From positions 124,001-188,000 of the forward strand of contig NZ_JAAMOW010000003.1 in assembly GCF_011067135.1 (NCBI RefSeq): a stretch of 64,000 nucleotides of DNA, written 5' to 3'. The stretch comes from Solimonas terrae. Lineage in GTDB: Bacteria; Pseudomonadota; Gammaproteobacteria; Nevskiales; Nevskiaceae. Numbering within the stretch: the stretch's first letter is position 1; each line of letters starts with the position of its first letter. A program made the position numbers and the translations under genes. The notes beneath the pieces are model-generated. The model saw only the letters and a program-made list of their open reading frames with translations, did no database searches and had not been told where the DNA came from. Positions 8,228 to 42,562 of this stretch are shown piece after piece.

Positions 8228-10318
8228 TTACCTGGCGTTCCCGCCGATCCAGCGCTGCAACCAGGCCTGCACGGTCTCGTGCCACTGCACGCTGTTCTGC
8301 GGCTTCAGCACCCAGTGGTTTTCGTCCGGAAACACCAGCAGTTCGGACGGAATGCCGCGGCGCTGCAGCGCCGTGAACGCGGCGATGCCCTGTTCGACCG
8401 GGATGCGGTAGTCCTTCTCGCTGTGGACGATCAGCATCGGCGTCTTCCAGTTCTTGACGTAATTGACCGGATTGAATTCCTCGAACTTGGCCGGATCGTC
8501 GTACTGCGTGCCGCCGTTCTCCCACTCGTCGAACCAGAGCTCTTCGGTCGAGTAATACATCATGCGGTTGTCGAACACGCCGTCGTGGTTGACGATGCAC
8601 TTGAACGCGTCCGGCCAGTTGCCGGCGATCCAGTTCATCATGTAGCCGCCGTAGCTGGCGCCGAGTGCCGCTGCCTTGTCGCCGTCGAGAAAATCGTACT
8701 GCTTCAGCGCGTACGCCCAGCCCTTCTTGAGATCTTCAAGGGGCTTGCCGCCCCAGTCACCGGAGATCGAATCGGTGAATGCCTGGCCGTAGCCGGTCGA
8801 GCCGTGGAAGTCGATGAACACGACCGCGTAGCCCATGCCCGCGTAGATCGCCGGGTTCCAGCGGTAGTGGAAGTCATTGCCCATGCTGCCCTGCGGGCCA
8901 CCGTGGACAATGAACGCGACCGGGTACTTCCTGCCCTTGTGATAATTCCACGGCTTCATCACGTAGCCGTGCACGGTTTCGTCATGCCAGCCGCGAAAGC
9001 TGAACTGCTCGTAGGCGCCGAACTGCACGTCGGCGAGGCGCTCGGCGTTGACGTTCGTCAGCTGTCGCGCCTTGGCCGGCGCATCGAGGTCGGCGACGTA
9101 CAGATCGGCCGGCGCATTGAGGCTGTCGAGCGCGTAGACCAGGGTTCTGCCGTTGACATCGAAACCGCCGACATGGCCGTCGCCGCTGAGCGCACTGGCC
9201 TTGCCGCTGGCGACGTCGATCGCGAACACGCGATGCTGGCCGAGATCGTCGGCCTGCGTGTAGATCGTCTTGCCGTCGGCCGAGAACTGCAGCGGGCCGG
9301 CCGAGCGATCCCAGTCCGGCGCCACTTCGCGCGTTGCACCGGTCTTGAGATCGCGCAGCATGATCGCGAGCCGATCGGCCTCGAATTTCGGACGCTTCAT
9401 CGCCGCCCAGGCCAGATAGCGGCCGTCGGGCGAGAATTTCGGCGTGGTGTCGGTCGCCTCGTTGGCCTGGGTCAGGTTGACCGGCTTGCTGCTGCCGTCG
9501 CTCGCCACCTGCCAGAGATCGAGATTCGTGCTCCAGGCTTCCGTCCTGCCGGCGATGCGGGCAGTGAACACGACGCTCTTGCCGTCCGGCGAGAATGTGT
9601 ACTCGGTCTCGTCGCCGAACGGCTTGCTCGGCACGTCGCCGTCGATGTCCTTCGACAGCAGGGCCGGCTCGCCGAGCTTGCCGTCATCGCCGATCGTGGC
9701 GGCGAAAAGTTGCGAGCGCGTGCCCTGCGACCACGTGTCCCAGTGGCGAATGAACAGTTTGTCGAACACCATGCCGGTGGTTTTCTTCGCGGCGAGCTCG
9801 TCGAACTTCTTCTTGCTGCAGGCGATGTCGCCCTTGCACGCCGGAAACACTTCGAGCGAGAACGCGACGCGCGTGCCGTCCGGCGAGAGCACGAAGTTGT
9901 TGACATCGAGCGGCAGATCGCTGACCGGCTGCGCCTCGCCACCACGCAGATCGAGCTTCCACAGCTGGTTCGAGCCGCTGCGCACCGACAGAAAATACAG
10001 GGCCTGACCGTCGGCCGACCAGCGCGCGCTGCTGCTCGATTTCTCGCCGCTGGTCATCGGCCGCGAAGCATGCGTCGCCAGATCGAGCAGCCAGATCTGG
10101 GTGACGCCCTTGTTGGCGTCGTAGTCGGTCGTGCGCAGCGTGTAGGCCACGGACTTGCCGTCCGGCGACAGCTGCGGATCGGAGATGCGCTTGAGATTGA
10201 CCAGATCGATCGCGGTCAGGGCGCGCGGGGCTTTCGTTTTCTGGTTCATCGATGCGGTAGCGCCGAATGGATAAAGCGACATCGTGGCGAGCAGGGCGCC
10301 GGCAAGCAAACGGATCAT
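8228..10318 (-). CDS. S9 family (prolyl oligopeptidase type) peptidase
   Basis: A 696-residue secreted peptidase with an N-terminal signal peptide (MIRLLAGALLATMSLYP), a beta-propeller built of repeats such as SPDGKSVAYT and SPDGRYLAWA, and a C-terminal alpha/beta hydrolase domain. The nucleophile lies in GASYGGYMMNW, the Asp in VHSEKDYRIP and the His in FPDENHWV. Such enzymes usually cleave dipeptides or acyl-aminoacyl groups from oligopeptides in the periplasm. The start at 10318 has GGGAGA just upstream. It is immediately upstream of the M28 gene. Confidence 0.93.
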   Translation of the reverse strand: MIRLLAGALLATMSLYPFGATASMNQKTKAPRALTAIDLVNLKRISDPQLSPDGKSVAYTLRTTDYDANKGVTQIWLLDLATHASRPMTSGEKSSSSARWSADGQALYFLSVRSGSNQLWKLDLRGGEAQPVSDLPLDVNNFVLSPDGTRVAFSLEVFPACKGDIACSKKKFDELAAKKTTGMVFDKLFIRHWDTWSQGTRSQLFAATIGDDGKLGEPALLSKDIDGDVPSKPFGDETEYTFSPDGKSVVFTARIAGRTEAWSTNLDLWQVASDGSSKPVNLTQANEATDTTPKFSPDGRYLAWAAMKRPKFEADRLAIMLRDLKTGATREVAPDWDRSAGPLQFSADGKTIYTQADDLGQHRVFAIDVASGKASALSGDGHVGGFDVNGRTLVYALDSLNAPADLYVADLDAPAKARQLTNVNAERLADVQFGAYEQFSFRGWHDETVHGYVMKPWNYHKGRKYPVAFIVHGGPQGSMGNDFHYRWNPAIYAGMGYAVVFIDFHGSTGYGQAFTDSISGDWGGKPLEDLKKGWAYALKQYDFLDGDKAAALGASYGGYMMNWIAGNWPDAFKCIVNHDGVFDNRMMYYSTEELWFDEWENGGTQYDDPAKFEEFNPVNYVKNWKTPMLIVHSEKDYRIPVEQGIAAFTALQRRGIPSELLVFPDENHWVLKPQNSVQWHETVQAWLQRWIGGNAR

Positions 10319-10634
10319 GGGATCTCCCGGTTGCGGCCGCATCGGCAGCCGCTGAATTTCAGACGGCGATGGTAAACGTCTGCATCGGGATTGGACTGAG
10401 GGAACCTCCTCAGCGTCGCGATGACATCAGGGCCCGGCGCATCGGTGCAGCCCCGACAGCGCATGGCCGTTGACGCCGTCGTGTCTCGTTCGTTTCGCGA
10501 CCATGATCGCGGGCGCTCCGGCACGAAGGGCTTACGCCGCAGCGACTCCGCCGCGGCGTTCGTTTTCGCTCTCGTCGCGAGATCGACGGCCTGCCGGGCC
10601 TGTCGGCGCGCAGCATCGCGCACCTCATGGCATT
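10319..10634. other. Intergenic gap upstream of the S9 peptidase
   Basis: 316 nt with no supportable gene. It separates the S9 peptidase start from the stop of the double protease, both on the minus strand. A small palindrome, CTGAGG-N6-CCTCAG (10396-10413), lies about 80 nt upstream of the S9 start and could be an operator. I saw no good promoter or terminator. Confidence 0.5.
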
Positions 10635-13541
10635 TCAGTCGCGGATCCTGCGTTGTCTGCGCAGGGCGGCGAGCGTCAGCGGCAACAGGCCGAGCCAGCC
10701 AAAGCTGCCGCCACCACCACCGGAAGAGCCGGAACCATCGCCGGAGTTGGAGCCGCCGGAACTGCCGCTGCCCAGCCCGGAGGCGTCCCGGCCGTCGAGC
10801 ACGGTGTTGCCGGTATTGCCGGGATCGAGCACGGCCTTGAGTGTGACGCCGGTGACGCTGCTCGCGGTCCAGGCCTGATCGAGCCGCGCGAAGTAATCGG
10901 TCGCGCCATTGTTCGATGTGCCGGAGCAACCACCATTGCCGCCGGACAGCGTTCCGACGATGTGCCGATTCCGGTCGAGCAGGCCGGACCCGGATGAGCC
11001 TTCTTCGGTCGTTCCGTTGGCCCAGCTCACACCCCAGGCGTTGACGCTGAAGCCGCTCAGGCCGAGCAGGCCGCCACCGGTGATGCGCACGTTGTCCGTT
11101 TTTTGCGCGGTCTGCGTATAGGTGCTGATCTTCTTGTCGTCGCCCGACGGGTGATGAATGACCGCGCCCGATGTCGGCGAGTTGCCGCGGCTGTCCCAGC
11201 CGTCGTAGTAGGCGTCGAAGCTGCTCGGCGGCTTGCTGGCGAGCTCGAACAGCGTGTAGTCGGTGACGGTCTTGCCCGAGGTTCCGGCGCGCACGCTCAG
11301 GCCGGCGATGTTCTGCGTGACCGTGCCGACGGTGCCGCTGCCGCAGGCGGACCGCTGCACGTTGAAGTAGGCGGTGGTCTGGTCGATCGTGCTGCTGTCG
11401 ACGCCGCAATGATTGGCGGTCAGCACCAGCGGTGTGCCGTCTTCGGACGTGTTGTTGACCAGCGAACCACTGCACAGATATTCCGACAGACCCTTGACGA
11501 TGGTGATCAGCACGGTCGAGCGGATCTGGTCGGAGTAGCCGTCACCGATCGGGCAGGCGACATCGAACTCGCAGGCCCCGGATGTGCCGCTGGTATTCGA
11601 GAAGCTCTTGCTGTCGAGATCGCGGAACGCATGAAACGCGCTGGCGGAGGCGAACGAGAAGTCCGCCTTTTCCTCATACGGCATGCGCACTTCGATTACC
11701 GCGTCTTCGCTGCGTACCAGCGGCGTGACGAAGCGGCCGTTGCGCGCGGCCGTGTACGGACCCTGCACGTCGGCGCCATTGTTCGTGTAGAGGTAGAGCT
11801 GCGCGTGCTCCGGCAATTGCAGATCGTCGAAGCGGAAGTTCAGCGCGTGTGCGCCGCTCGAGTTGATGCGCAGACGCCAGCGTGCGAGCCCCGCTTCCGG
11901 TTCATCCCAGGTGCCGTCGGCGACGCCGGCCTCGATCGCCATGCCGACGGCAAACTGCAGCGGCTGGCCTTTCGCCGATTCAAGCGCGTTCTTGACGGTG
12001 ACGGGGTTCAGACGGACTTGCGCGACCGTGGGCAGGCTTGCCAGCTCGGGACTGTAAGCCGAGCTGACGAACGGGAATGCCAGACCGAGCACGGCCACGG
12101 TGCGCAACACCATGCGCCGCTGCGCCCGCCCGCGGCGACAAACTGCACCAAAGGCGAGCATCAGCAGACTGAGCCAGCCGAAACTGCCGCCACCGCTGTC
12201 GCTGCGGTTCTTGCCGTCGAGTGTCATTTTGTTCTCCCCGTCTGGTGTCAATGCGGCTTTCAAAGTGGTGCCGGTGCTGCTGGTCGCCGTCCAGGCGCGA
12301 TCGAGGCGCGCGAAGTAATCCGTGCCGCCGTTGTTCGCGGTTCCCGCGCAGTCGCCGTCGCCGCCGGAAAGCGTGCCGACGATGCGGCCGTTCTGATCGA
12401 ACAATGCCGAGCCCGAAGAACCCGCTTCCGTGGTGCCCTGCGCCCACTGCACGGCCCAGGCATCGACCCTGAAGGCGCCGCGGCACGCAGGATCGCTGCC
12501 GATGCAGACGTTGTCGACGCTTTGCGCGCTTTGCGTGTAGACGCTGATCTTCTTGTCGTCTCCGCCCGGATGGTGAATCGCCGCGCCGGATTGCGGCGTG
12601 CCGGTGCTGGCATCCCATCCCGCGTAGTAGACGTCGTAGGCGCTCGGCGGCAGGTTCGCGAGCTCGAACAGCGTGTAGTCGGTGACGGCAGTGCCGCTGG
12701 TCTTTGCCAGCACGGTCTTGCCGGCAATCACCTGGTTGATCGGGCCGTCTGCGTTGCCGCCGCAGCTCGATTTCTGGACGTTGAAATAGACATTGGTTTC
12801 GCTGACGTTGCCGCTGTCCACGTCGCAGTGGTTGGCGGTCAGGATCAGCGGGCGATCATCCTGCGCACTGTTGTTGACGAGAGTGCCGCTGCACAGATAC
12901 ATGCCGGCGATCTGCAGCAACACCGCTGCACGGATCTGCTTCTGCCAGCTGTTGCCGGCCGGGCACGCGACGTCGATTTCGCAGGCGCCGGAATCACCGA
13001 GCGCACCCTTCGCGACGATGGCGCTGCGTGCGCGGAATGCGCGATAGCCGTGGAAAGCACGGCCGAGCGTCAGCGAGAACCGTGACTTCTCGGCGTACGG
13101 CATGCGGGCTTCGATGATCGCGTCGTCGGCTCGCACCAGCGGCGTCCACAGCGTGCCGTTGCTGGCGGATGTGAACGGTCCCTGCAGGTCCTTGCCGTCG
13201 GCGCCGTACACGTAGAGCGCGGCATCGGCGGGCAGCGACAGCGCGTCGATGCGGAAGCTCAGCGATTCGGCGCCGTCGGAGCCAAGCCGCAGGCGCCAGC
13301 GTGCGACGCCGGCCTGCGGTTCGTCCCAGCTGCCGTCTGCAACGTGTGCGCCGAGATCACGACCGACCGCGAATTGCCGCGGTTGCGCACGAACGGCTGC
13401 GATCGCGCTTGCGACTGCATCGGCATCCAGATGCAGCCGCGCGACGTTCGACAGGCTGTCGAGGTCCGGCTTGTAGGCCTGTGCCGCGAAGGGCAGGGCG
13501 ATGAGCAACAGCGCGGCAAGCGTGGCACGCATGGCACGCAT
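10635..13541 (-). CDS. Tandem fusion of two secreted trypsin-like proteases with GlyGly-CTERM signals
   Basis: A 968-residue protein made of two homologous halves. Half 1 has a signal peptide (1-22), a propeptide domain (about 60-170), a trypsin-like domain with His238 (LTANHC), Asp288 (TDYTLFE) and Ser376 (EAGSSGSAL), then a GlyGly-CTERM segment at 447-476 (SGGGSFGWLSLL, a hydrophobic stretch, then Arg-rich). Half 2 starts at Met477 with another typical signal peptide (MVLRTVAVLGLAFPFVSSA). It repeats the propeptide, the triad (His711, Asp761, Ser850) and a terminal GlyGly-CTERM (940-968). The catalytic domains resemble lysyl endopeptidase of family S1. The start at 13541 has an AGGGAGA site. 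No stop codon separates the halves and no ribosome site is seen before Met477. GlyGly-CTERM proteins are normally processed by rhombosortase and leave by type II secretion; neither is encoded here. Confidence 0.92.
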   Translation of the reverse strand: MRAMRATLAALLLIALPFAAQAYKPDLDSLSNVARLHLDADAVASAIAAVRAQPRQFAVGRDLGAHVADGSWDEPQAGVARWRLRLGSDGAESLSFRIDALSLPADAALYVYGADGKDLQGPFTSASNGTLWTPLVRADDAIIEARMPYAEKSRFSLTLGRAFHGYRAFRARSAIVAKGALGDSGACEIDVACPAGNSWQKQIRAAVLLQIAGMYLCSGTLVNNSAQDDRPLILTANHCDVDSGNVSETNVYFNVQKSSCGGNADGPINQVIAGKTVLAKTSGTAVTDYTLFELANLPPSAYDVYYAGWDASTGTPQSGAAIHHPGGDDKKISVYTQSAQSVDNVCIGSDPACRGAFRVDAWAVQWAQGTTEAGSSGSALFDQNGRIVGTLSGGDGDCAGTANNGGTDYFARLDRAWTATSSTGTTLKAALTPDGENKMTLDGKNRSDSGGGSFGWLSLLMLAFGAVCRRGRAQRRMVLRTVAVLGLAFPFVSSAYSPELASLPTVAQVRLNPVTVKNALESAKGQPLQFAVGMAIEAGVADGTWDEPEAGLARWRLRINSSGAHALNFRFDDLQLPEHAQLYLYTNNGADVQGPYTAARNGRFVTPLVRSEDAVIEVRMPYEEKADFSFASASAFHAFRDLDSKSFSNTSGTSGACEFDVACPIGDGYSDQIRSTVLITIVKGLSEYLCSGSLVNNTSEDGTPLVLTANHCGVDSSTIDQTTAYFNVQRSACGSGTVGTVTQNIAGLSVRAGTSGKTVTDYTLFELASKPPSSFDAYYDGWDSRGNSPTSGAVIHHPSGDDKKISTYTQTAQKTDNVRITGGGLLGLSGFSVNAWGVSWANGTTEEGSSGSGLLDRNRHIVGTLSGGNGGCSGTSNNGATDYFARLDQAWTASSVTGVTLKAVLDPGNTGNTVLDGRDASGLGSGSSGGSNSGDGSGSSGGGGGSFGWLGLLPLTLAALRRQRRIRD

Positions 13542-13613
13542 GGCGGGTCTCCCTTTTGTTTCGTGCACTCTAACCCGCCGGCGCGACGCGATTGTTTCCA
13601 TTTGTCGCCGGTT

Positions 13614-14528
13614 TCAGTCCGGTGGACCGCTGACGATGCCGACTCGCGCCGAGCTGCCTTCGATGGACAAGGCAGCGTCGCGTGCGCCGAGCTGCAGAAC
13701 CAGCGTGGCCAGCGAGCCGCCTGCAGCATCTCCGACCGCATCGACGATCTCCCCCGCGGCCTGCGTTTCGCCGTGCTGAAGGATTGCGGTGCCCGGTGCC
13801 GGCGGCGGCCCATCGATACGGGCGACGAACATGCGCCGCTTGAGCTGGCCGAGGTAGTGCAGGCGCGCGACGATTTCCTGTCCGGTGTAGCAGCCCTTGT
13901 CGAAACTGATGCCGCCGAGCAGGTCGAGGTTCGCCATCTGCGCGACGAAATGCTCGCGGGTTTCCGGCAGCACGACCGGTATGCCGTTTTCGATGTCGGT
14001 GCGTCGCCACAATTCCGGGTCATCGCAGTACGAGGCCGTGGGAAGCCGCGCGCGCAGCGCCGCAATCCGCTCCTGCGTGCCGATGACGCTATAGCGCGCG
14101 GTCGCGCCGAGACGGCGCACGACGGTCAGGCGCTGCGTGTCGCCGAGGCATTGCAGAGCGGTGTCGGGCACCGGCAGCCCGTATTCCGTCATGAAGGCGG
14201 TGGCGCCTTCGCCGATGATGCCCAGTGCGGCAATGTCGTCGGCTTTCTCGACCACCACTTTTGCCCGCAGCACGAACATTTTCAGACGTGCCAGCGTCGC
14301 GTCGGCGATCGAGCGCGGCAGCTCGACGAGAATCTCGTCGCCGACACGGACCAGCAGCAGCACCGCGAGCATGCGACCCTTGGCATTGCTGTAGCTCGTC
14401 AGCTGCGCGGTTTCCGCCGTCAGCTTGCGCAGGTCGTTGCTGAGCTGGCCCTGCAGGAATGTCACGGCATCGTCGCCGCGAACGCGCAGCCAGCGCTGCT
14501 CCGGGGTGTCGGCAAACAAGGTATTCAT
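13614..14528 (-). CDS. ygfZ: YgfZ/GcvT-like folate-binding protein
   Basis: A 304-residue cytoplasmic protein of the COG0354 family that uses folate in assembly or repair of iron-sulfur enzymes. The family signature KGCYTGQE is present with its conserved Cys (GISFDKGCYTGQEIVARLHY). In E. coli ygfZ sits next to sdhE and ygfX; here the succinate dehydrogenase operon lies between them, which supports a shared role in Fe-S and flavin enzyme maturation. It is divergent from the sdh operon. Confidence 0.95.
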   Translation of the reverse strand: MNTLFADTPEQRWLRVRGDDAVTFLQGQLSNDLRKLTAETAQLTSYSNAKGRMLAVLLLVRVGDEILVELPRSIADATLARLKMFVLRAKVVVEKADDIAALGIIGEGATAFMTEYGLPVPDTALQCLGDTQRLTVVRRLGATARYSVIGTQERIAALRARLPTASYCDDPELWRRTDIENGIPVVLPETREHFVAQMANLDLLGGISFDKGCYTGQEIVARLHYLGQLKRRMFVARIDGPPPAPGTAILQHGETQAAGEIVDAVGDAAGGSLATLVLQLGARDAALSIEGSSARVGIVSGPPD

Positions 14529-41992: not shown

Positions 41993-42562
41993 TCAGGGTT
42001 GATAGCCGCCGTAGACGTCGGTCAGTTCGGCACTGAATGCGTCGCGTGACGGCGTCGGCAGCCAGACTTCGACGCGTGCCTGCGAGCTGGCGATCGAGGC
42101 CGACCAGAGCTCGCCGTTCGGCGCTTCGGTGTACGGGCCCTGGCGCAGCTTGCCGTCCGGCGAGCACAGCCACAGCGCCGATTGCTTCGGCAGCTTGACG
42201 TCACGCATGCGCACGGCGATCGATCGCGCCCGCCTGGAGCCCAGGGTCAGTGCCAGCACCGACCAGCCGTCGCCCTGATCGTTCCAGACTCCGATCTGCT
42301 GCAGCGGCTGATTGACGGTGTGGATCTGCGCGATGTCGACATCGTTGTCATTGCTGGCATGACGCGGTGCGTCCGTGCCGGGCAGCTTGAGGATCGGCGC
42401 CGGCATTTTCAGCGTGGCGTGACAGGCCTCGTCGGCGGCCGGTGGGGCTGTTTCCGCCACCGCCTGCGCCGGCGACTTTTGTGTCCATGACTGGCAGGCG
42501 CCGAGCAGCAGCGCGGCGCTGGCGGTGGTCGTCAATGCGATCGCACTTGCTGTCCTGTTCAC
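41993..42562 (-). CDS. Lipoprotein resembling a stand-alone trypsin-like protease propeptide
   Basis: A 189-residue predicted lipoprotein with lipobox LLLGACQSW. Residues 97-189 line up by eye with the propeptide domains of the double protease at 10635-13541. Shared positions include LxLGS, a KLP/SLP turn, SALW against AALY, DGK, QGPYT against QGPFT, NGELW against NGTLW, and a final GGY/HGY. It lacks any protease domain. It ends 13 nt from the convergent phosphorylase gene. A role as protease inhibitor or folding helper is a hypothesis only. Confidence 0.8.
   Translation of the reverse strand: MNRTASAIALTTTASAALLLGACQSWTQKSPAQAVAETAPPAADEACHATLKMPAPILKLPGTDAPRHASNDNDVDIAQIHTVNQPLQQIGVWNDQGDGWSVLALTLGSRRARSIAVRMRDVKLPKQSALWLCSPDGKLRQGPYTEAPNGELWSASIASSQARVEVWLPTPSRDAFSAELTDVYGGYQP

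Follow-up and report, generated by a model that had tools for sequence, protein, structure and literature searches.

In Solimonas terrae, one reading frame carries two complete exported proteases, each with its own signal peptide and its own sorting tag. This raises the question of how two such proteins came to share a chain and what becomes of that chain after export begins. The frame lies in a 64,000-nucleotide stretch of DNA, which we refer to as the window.

One continuous frame encodes two complete proteases

The minus-strand frame 13541-10635 is open from the ATG at 13541 to a TGA and comprises 968 codons. This ATG is preceded by AAAAGGGAGA and opens a signal peptide; an alternative upstream ATG at 13601 would give a protein of 988 aa. 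Each half of the 968-aa protein has a signal peptide, a propeptide, a catalytic triad, and a GlyGly-CTERM tag. The halves abut at codon 477 (ATG 12113) with no stop codon and no spacer between them. Here and in the parallel junctions described below, we judged signals by eye and by hydropathy. The features are as follows.

10635..13541, minus strand: fused gene for two GlyGly-CTERM lysyl-endopeptidase-like proteases, 968 aa (frame, profile and structure matches)
13476..13541, minus strand: signal peptide 1, residues 1-22 (hydrophobic stretch, AQA end, by eye)
12204..13001, minus strand: protease domain 1, residues 181-446, with His238, Asp288, and Ser376 (lysyl endopeptidase match, triad)
12114..12194, minus strand: internal GlyGly-CTERM, residues 450-468, followed by the basic loop RRGRAQRR, residues 469-476 (TIGR03501)
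12057..12113, minus strand: signal peptide 2 (internal), residues 477-495, with its probable cut after SSA (hydropathy; alignment with the N termini of separate copies)
10776..11588, minus strand: protease domain 2, residues 652-922, with His711, Asp761, and Ser850 (lysyl endopeptidase match, triad)
10638..10715, minus strand: C-terminal GlyGly-CTERM, residues 943-968 (TIGR03501, 20.3 bits)
13614..14528, minus strand: upstream gene, presumably ygfZ-like, a conserved neighbour (blastp; next to the protease in each of the 10 other genus members)
8228..10342, minus strand: downstream gene, which we take to encode an S9-type peptidase, a conserved neighbour (8 of 10 fetched stretches)

The solved lysyl endopeptidases 4nsv, 4nsy, and 1arb matched both halves with E values of about 1e-36 to 3e-35, except for the weakest of the three in half 1 (5e-35); the match to half 1 spans residues 182-452. 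Both halves retain the triad and an invariant Cys. Half 1 passes Pfam Trypsin_2, and half 2 alone scores 24.6 bits, below the cut-off of 27.6. For half 1, AF2 gave a confident model (mean pLDDT, 86.9). The protease domains are thus like those of known lysyl endopeptidases, such as Achromobacter protease I (1arb) and 4nsv. The fused gene differs from these in having two copies per chain, each with a GlyGly-CTERM tag, and lysine specificity is putative here.

Against the TIGR03501 (GlyGly_CTERM) cut-off of 15.5 bits, half 1 alone scored 15.9 bits at residues 450-470 and half 2 alone scored 20.3 bits at residues 943-964. The junction segment by itself, with the internal GlyGly-CTERM, reached 20.6 bits, and the internal hairpin has six basic residues and no acidic ones. 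The gene is a real fusion, with one continuous coding frame for two complete proteins, as in a polyprotein. The preliminary description, which had reported two complete proteases head to tail, an uninterrupted junction at codon 477, and a triad in each half, is borne out on all of these points.

The window also holds a lone homologue of the proteases' propeptide, at 41993-42562 on the minus strand, with 35% identity to half 1 over 98 residues (E, 9e-16). It has a GTG start and a lipoprotein-type signal, LLLGAC, recognised by eye. Separate propeptide homologues outside proteases were found in 14 of 58 family genomes, including 11 of 11 of the genus; two of these 11 genus matches contain an in-frame TGA. 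The lone homologue may inhibit the proteases or help them to fold.

The fusion joins two old tandem paralogues

The protease is present in every one of the 10 other genomes of the genus, in one to three copies beside ygfZ and sdh genes, and the S9-type peptidase gene lies on the opposite side in 8 of the 10 fetched stretches. There is one copy in G002, G004, G005, G009, and G010, two in G003, G006, G007, and G008, and three in G001. We read 11 tandem junctions from ten other genomes, five of the genus and five of others. All 11 have a stop codon followed by 32-150 nt before the likely next start. In three of them (one each of G001, G008, and G048), the following copy keeps the frame of the one before it.

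The halves of the fused protein are 56.5% identical, and their DNA is 69.2% identical. In a tree of the copies, half 2 clusters with the single copies of G002, G004, G005, and G010 (96/96), and half 1 falls inside the same larger clade, at a position that the tree does not resolve. The tree rows were stop-to-stop frames, some with upstream residues that were mostly removed by a 30% column filter. The identity of the halves and the placement of half 2 led us to reject a recent duplication. Because of the tree placement, and because a stop and spacer stand at every tandem junction read elsewhere, we conclude that the pair is old and the loss of its stop and spacer newer. On this evidence, the gene arose from two long-standing tandem paralogues, which became fused when the stop and a short spacer were lost.

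It had been suggested that a stop codon was lost recently. The stop is indeed gone; however, the spacer is gone too, so that the point loss of a stop alone is insufficient. A stop codon between the halves in relatives had likewise been named as the sign of two ordinary adjacent genes. Such a stop does stand at all 11 tandem junctions elsewhere, yet the pair in S. terrae is still one gene.

The same 11 junctions could mean that an assembly or base-calling error masks two ordinary tandem genes, and the source genome is a single draft assembly (4.42 Mb, 20 contigs). However, one wrong base cannot delete a spacer of 32-150 nt, and the join is in frame and falls exactly where the intact tag ends and the intact signal peptide begins. 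The longest exact repeat between the halves is 31 bp and lies within the protease domain, away from the junction. We consider an error the least probable of the explanations weighed here. The 31-bp repeat, common to 12114-13541 and 10635-12113, surrounds the catalytic Asp and perhaps reflects gene conversion.

We found no second protease-protease fusion in 58 genomes of the family, 85 of the order (the 58 included), or 369 of the class, nor among the best 80 named loci; a scan of named genomes with the single protein as query gave no match. A conserved protease-protease fusion was therefore rejected, the fusion being seen in one genome only across these samples and loci. Long frames in G250 and G159 are not fusions and hold one protease apiece.

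Its restriction to one genome would suit a recent accidental fusion that goes unprocessed, either a double protease held in the inner membrane or a gene heading for loss. Against this, both halves keep the triad, the invariant Cys, and both sorting signals. Among the other rows of the tree, end branches run from 0.056 to 2.03, and those of the halves (0.39 and 0.62) fall between these values; both cut signals are also ordered as in the recurring layout described below. An accident of this kind is unlikely, only slightly less so than an assembly error. The protease pair is best described as a young single case whose junction resembles a recurrent layout.

The junction layout recurs before other exported proteins

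In the genus, TIGR03501 gave 31 matches at an E value of ≤0.05 in 10 of 11 genomes, 27 of them terminal and four internal. The internal ones are the fused protease gene, a Calx-beta protein in G002, another in G010, and one protein of G003. In both G002 and G010, the internal tag is followed by a signal peptide and then by an OmpA-like barrel. The AF2 model of the G002 tail has two helices and a barrel (mean pLDDT, 81.6, with the hairpin part low), and its best PDB matches are OmpA. In G003, the first protein has a weak fibronectin-III match, under the Pfam cut-off. Behind its tag stands a signal with the end LSAC|G, which by eye is of the lipoprotein type, and then a CehA/McbA metallohydrolase (E, 1e-48). 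A homologue of this first half in G013 (75% identity over 839 columns) has a stop codon right behind the basic cluster. Thus, joined and unjoined states both exist. A homologue of the second G003 protein was absent from the 5.5 kb of G013 that we read. In that locus (L243), the unjoined first protein is followed directly past the stop by a frame that looks by eye like a PhoD-type phosphatase.

We built a profile (A2) from the four genus junctions and ran it over 85 genomes of the order. We read the 30 returned loci and 20 stretches picked by eye, leaving out, for example, G025 and G001:C8, which have in-frame stops. This gave further cases in G005, G018, G023, G034, G038, and G054. The layout, a CTERM-like helix, a basic loop, a signal peptide, and a second exported protein in one frame, was therefore found in 10 of the 85 genomes, G000, G002, G003, and G010 included. 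Eight of these 10 genomes have barrels of a single family (A3) behind the junction, and six of the eight pass Pfam OmpA_membrane. The first proteins before the barrels differ and include Calx-beta, Ig-like/PKD, FG-GAP, and delta-60 repeats.

A profile of the A3 family matched in 96 of 369 genomes of the class. Among 30 A3 loci, eight had tag, signal, and barrel in one frame, and 15 looked like ordinary barrels with their own start. Four others ran on upstream with no GlyGly hairpin in view, and three (L270, L284, and L291) were left out. The four (L275, L277, L282, and L287) are OmpA-like barrels that extend an upstream frame. The layout was also present in 13 of 14 further A3 rows picked for starting near the tag end of the profile, the other (L305) having no Gly motif in view. 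The second protein was a full OmpA with a peptidoglycan-binding domain in all three of the further rows tested, and additional matches to the OmpA family were obtained. Overall, at least 16 of 369 class genomes have the layout, mostly before OmpA-like barrels, and this is a lower bound because only part of the A3 rows was read. The order and class samples overlap by three to four genomes. The signal peptides of the first proteins were checked for part of the parallel cases.

Across L292-L303, surface proteins are joined through a CTERM-like hairpin to a full OmpA with a peptidoglycan-binding domain. The first proteins of L292 and L297 are of the choice-of-anchor D type.

The internal tag is wider than the GlyGly model

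We tested 30 junction segments alone with TIGR03501, the fused protease gene included and L294 left out. Ten scored over the cut-off: the window gene, L206, L207, L208, L246, L262, L265, L267, L295, and L296. L299 stood exactly at the line with 15.5 bits, five (L242, L244, L292, L293, and L298) were below it, and the remaining 14 had no match. The MYXO-CTERM-type model TIGR03382 was passed instead by L244 and L300. In hmmscan searches of seven whole parallel proteins at an E value of ≤0.05, TIGR03501 was absent. Since about two-thirds of the parallel junctions miss TIGR03501, the layout extends beyond the strict GlyGly tag. Rhombosortase as the cutter is a fair guess from sequence for only part of its cases.

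A single chain or an internal start

If protease 2 were mostly made separately, by internal initiation at the ATG at 12113 or at the adjoining GTG or TTG, the fused chain would be minor or useless. The fused gene does have a consecutive ATG-GTG-TTG run where signal peptide 2 begins. The anti-SD duplex at the internal ATG is -6.3 kcal/mol, which places it among the lowest 3.8% when 929 in-gene positions are ranked. At their starts, 16 separate copies have values from -0.5 to -9.5 kcal/mol, a range that includes this one. The preliminary description had seen no ribosome site here and had argued from this against re-initiation; the site is weak, not absent, and that argument is weaker than it was put. 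However, with no stop codon in the first frame, protease 1 is always made fused.

The parallel junctions also bear on this explanation. In 18 that we tabulated, the hairpin is 38-57 residues long with two to seven basic and zero to one acidic residues. From residue 19 to 14 residues ahead of the cut, six of the 18 (L206, L207, L242, L246, L248, and L262) lack all three of ATG, GTG, and TTG. Of the 14 further A3 rows, L299 alone lacks them across residues 19-45. With no usual start codon in these six junctions, the second signal peptide there needs one chain. For the protease fusion, the one-chain argument holds only by analogy, because the ATG-GTG-TTG run and the weak ribosome-site-like stretch are present. 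Internal initiation is improbable in our judgement, if less so than an error or an accident.

The genome encodes candidate machinery for export and cutting

We searched the genome of the fused gene, together with 14 control genomes, for rhombosortase. The own genome encodes one at 144.8 bits (cut-off, 84) with the motifs GxSG and AHxxG; none of the 14 control genomes was above the cut-off. It also encodes the type II secretin GspD (566 bits; cut-off, 351). The gene therefore shares with the GlyGly-CTERM/rhombosortase system (VesB of Vibrio cholerae; TIGR03501, TIGR03902) the tripartite tag, secreted trypsin-fold proteases, and the rhombosortase and type II secretin genes. It differs in that its tag is also internal and is then followed by a signal peptide. 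The paper that defined the tag places it at the extreme C terminus (PMC3237569), which is true of copy 2 and false of copy 1, with 498 residues after it. V. cholerae rhombosortase cuts VesB at the second Gly, a glycerophosphoethanolamine moiety is attached to the new end, and the protein reaches the surface through the type II system (PMC6219818). A further study describes the tag as transferable (PMC13393428).

We propose, with a probability of roughly 0.6, that the precursor works as a polyprotein cut by rhombosortase and signal peptidase, which frees both proteases. Signal peptide 1 would export protease 1. The internal GlyGly-CTERM helix would halt in the inner membrane with the basic loop staying in the cytoplasm, and internal signal peptide 2 would restart export, now of protease 2. 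A rhombosortase cut at the internal GlyGly and a signal peptidase I cut after SSA would take both proteases off a short membrane hairpin, and protease 2 would next be cut at its own C-terminal GlyGly-CTERM. This topology, the two cuts, and the separate release of the proteases are what the arrangement most likely entails. An outer-membrane barrel can hardly remain tethered to inner-membrane helices, which makes some cut in the OmpA-type fusions nearly unavoidable.

Several observations count against reading the protease gene as a polyprotein. The protease fusion is present in a single assembly and in no relative. About two-thirds of the parallel junctions are under the TIGR03501 cut-off, and two pass TIGR03382. 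In addition, the internal ATG with its weak ribosome-site-like stretch may allow internal initiation. A polyprotein had already been raised in the preliminary description, and that reading has gained from the recurrence of similar junctions in unrelated genes, some with no usable internal start; the cleavage itself is predicted.

What the layout would mean

A single chain with an internal signal sequence has a precedent in FbcH (cytochrome b/c1) of Bradyrhizobium, which is cut by signal peptidase. To our knowledge, FbcH-type precursors have no rhombosortase-type tag before the internal signal. We found no description of an internal GlyGly-CTERM or of a rhombosortase polyprotein in the literature searched, which mostly excluded subscription journals.

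The OmpA-type fusions, rather than the protease pair, resemble myxobacterial TraA (MYXO-CTERM) and TraB (OmpA domain), whose genes overlap by four bases and whose proteins act together (PMC3325183). There, too, a CTERM-tagged surface protein is made together with an OmpA-domain partner. In contrast to the fusions, TraA and TraB are two proteins, the tag is MYXO-CTERM, and the OmpA domain is peptidoglycan binding. By analogy, TraA and TraB may indicate a reason for producing a tagged surface protein jointly with an OmpA partner.

The recurrent layout suggests natural bacterial polyproteins that are cut during export. We give even odds, lowered by the finding that only about a third of the junctions pass the strict model, to a wider reading, in which an internal CTERM tag that leads directly into a further signal peptide serves bacteria as a general type of polyprotein junction, across gammaproteobacteria. 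An intramembrane sorting protease and signal peptidase would cut the hairpin and yield two exported proteins one-to-one, mostly a large surface protein and an OmpA-like partner. Rhombosortase would be the sorting protease at least where the GlyGly model is matched, and the protease pair would be a young instance. If GlyGly-CTERM is also an internal cut site, a class of bacterial polyproteins escapes gene annotation and sorting predictors. The precursor of a surface protein would then also reveal that protein's helper, which is often an OmpA-like barrel.
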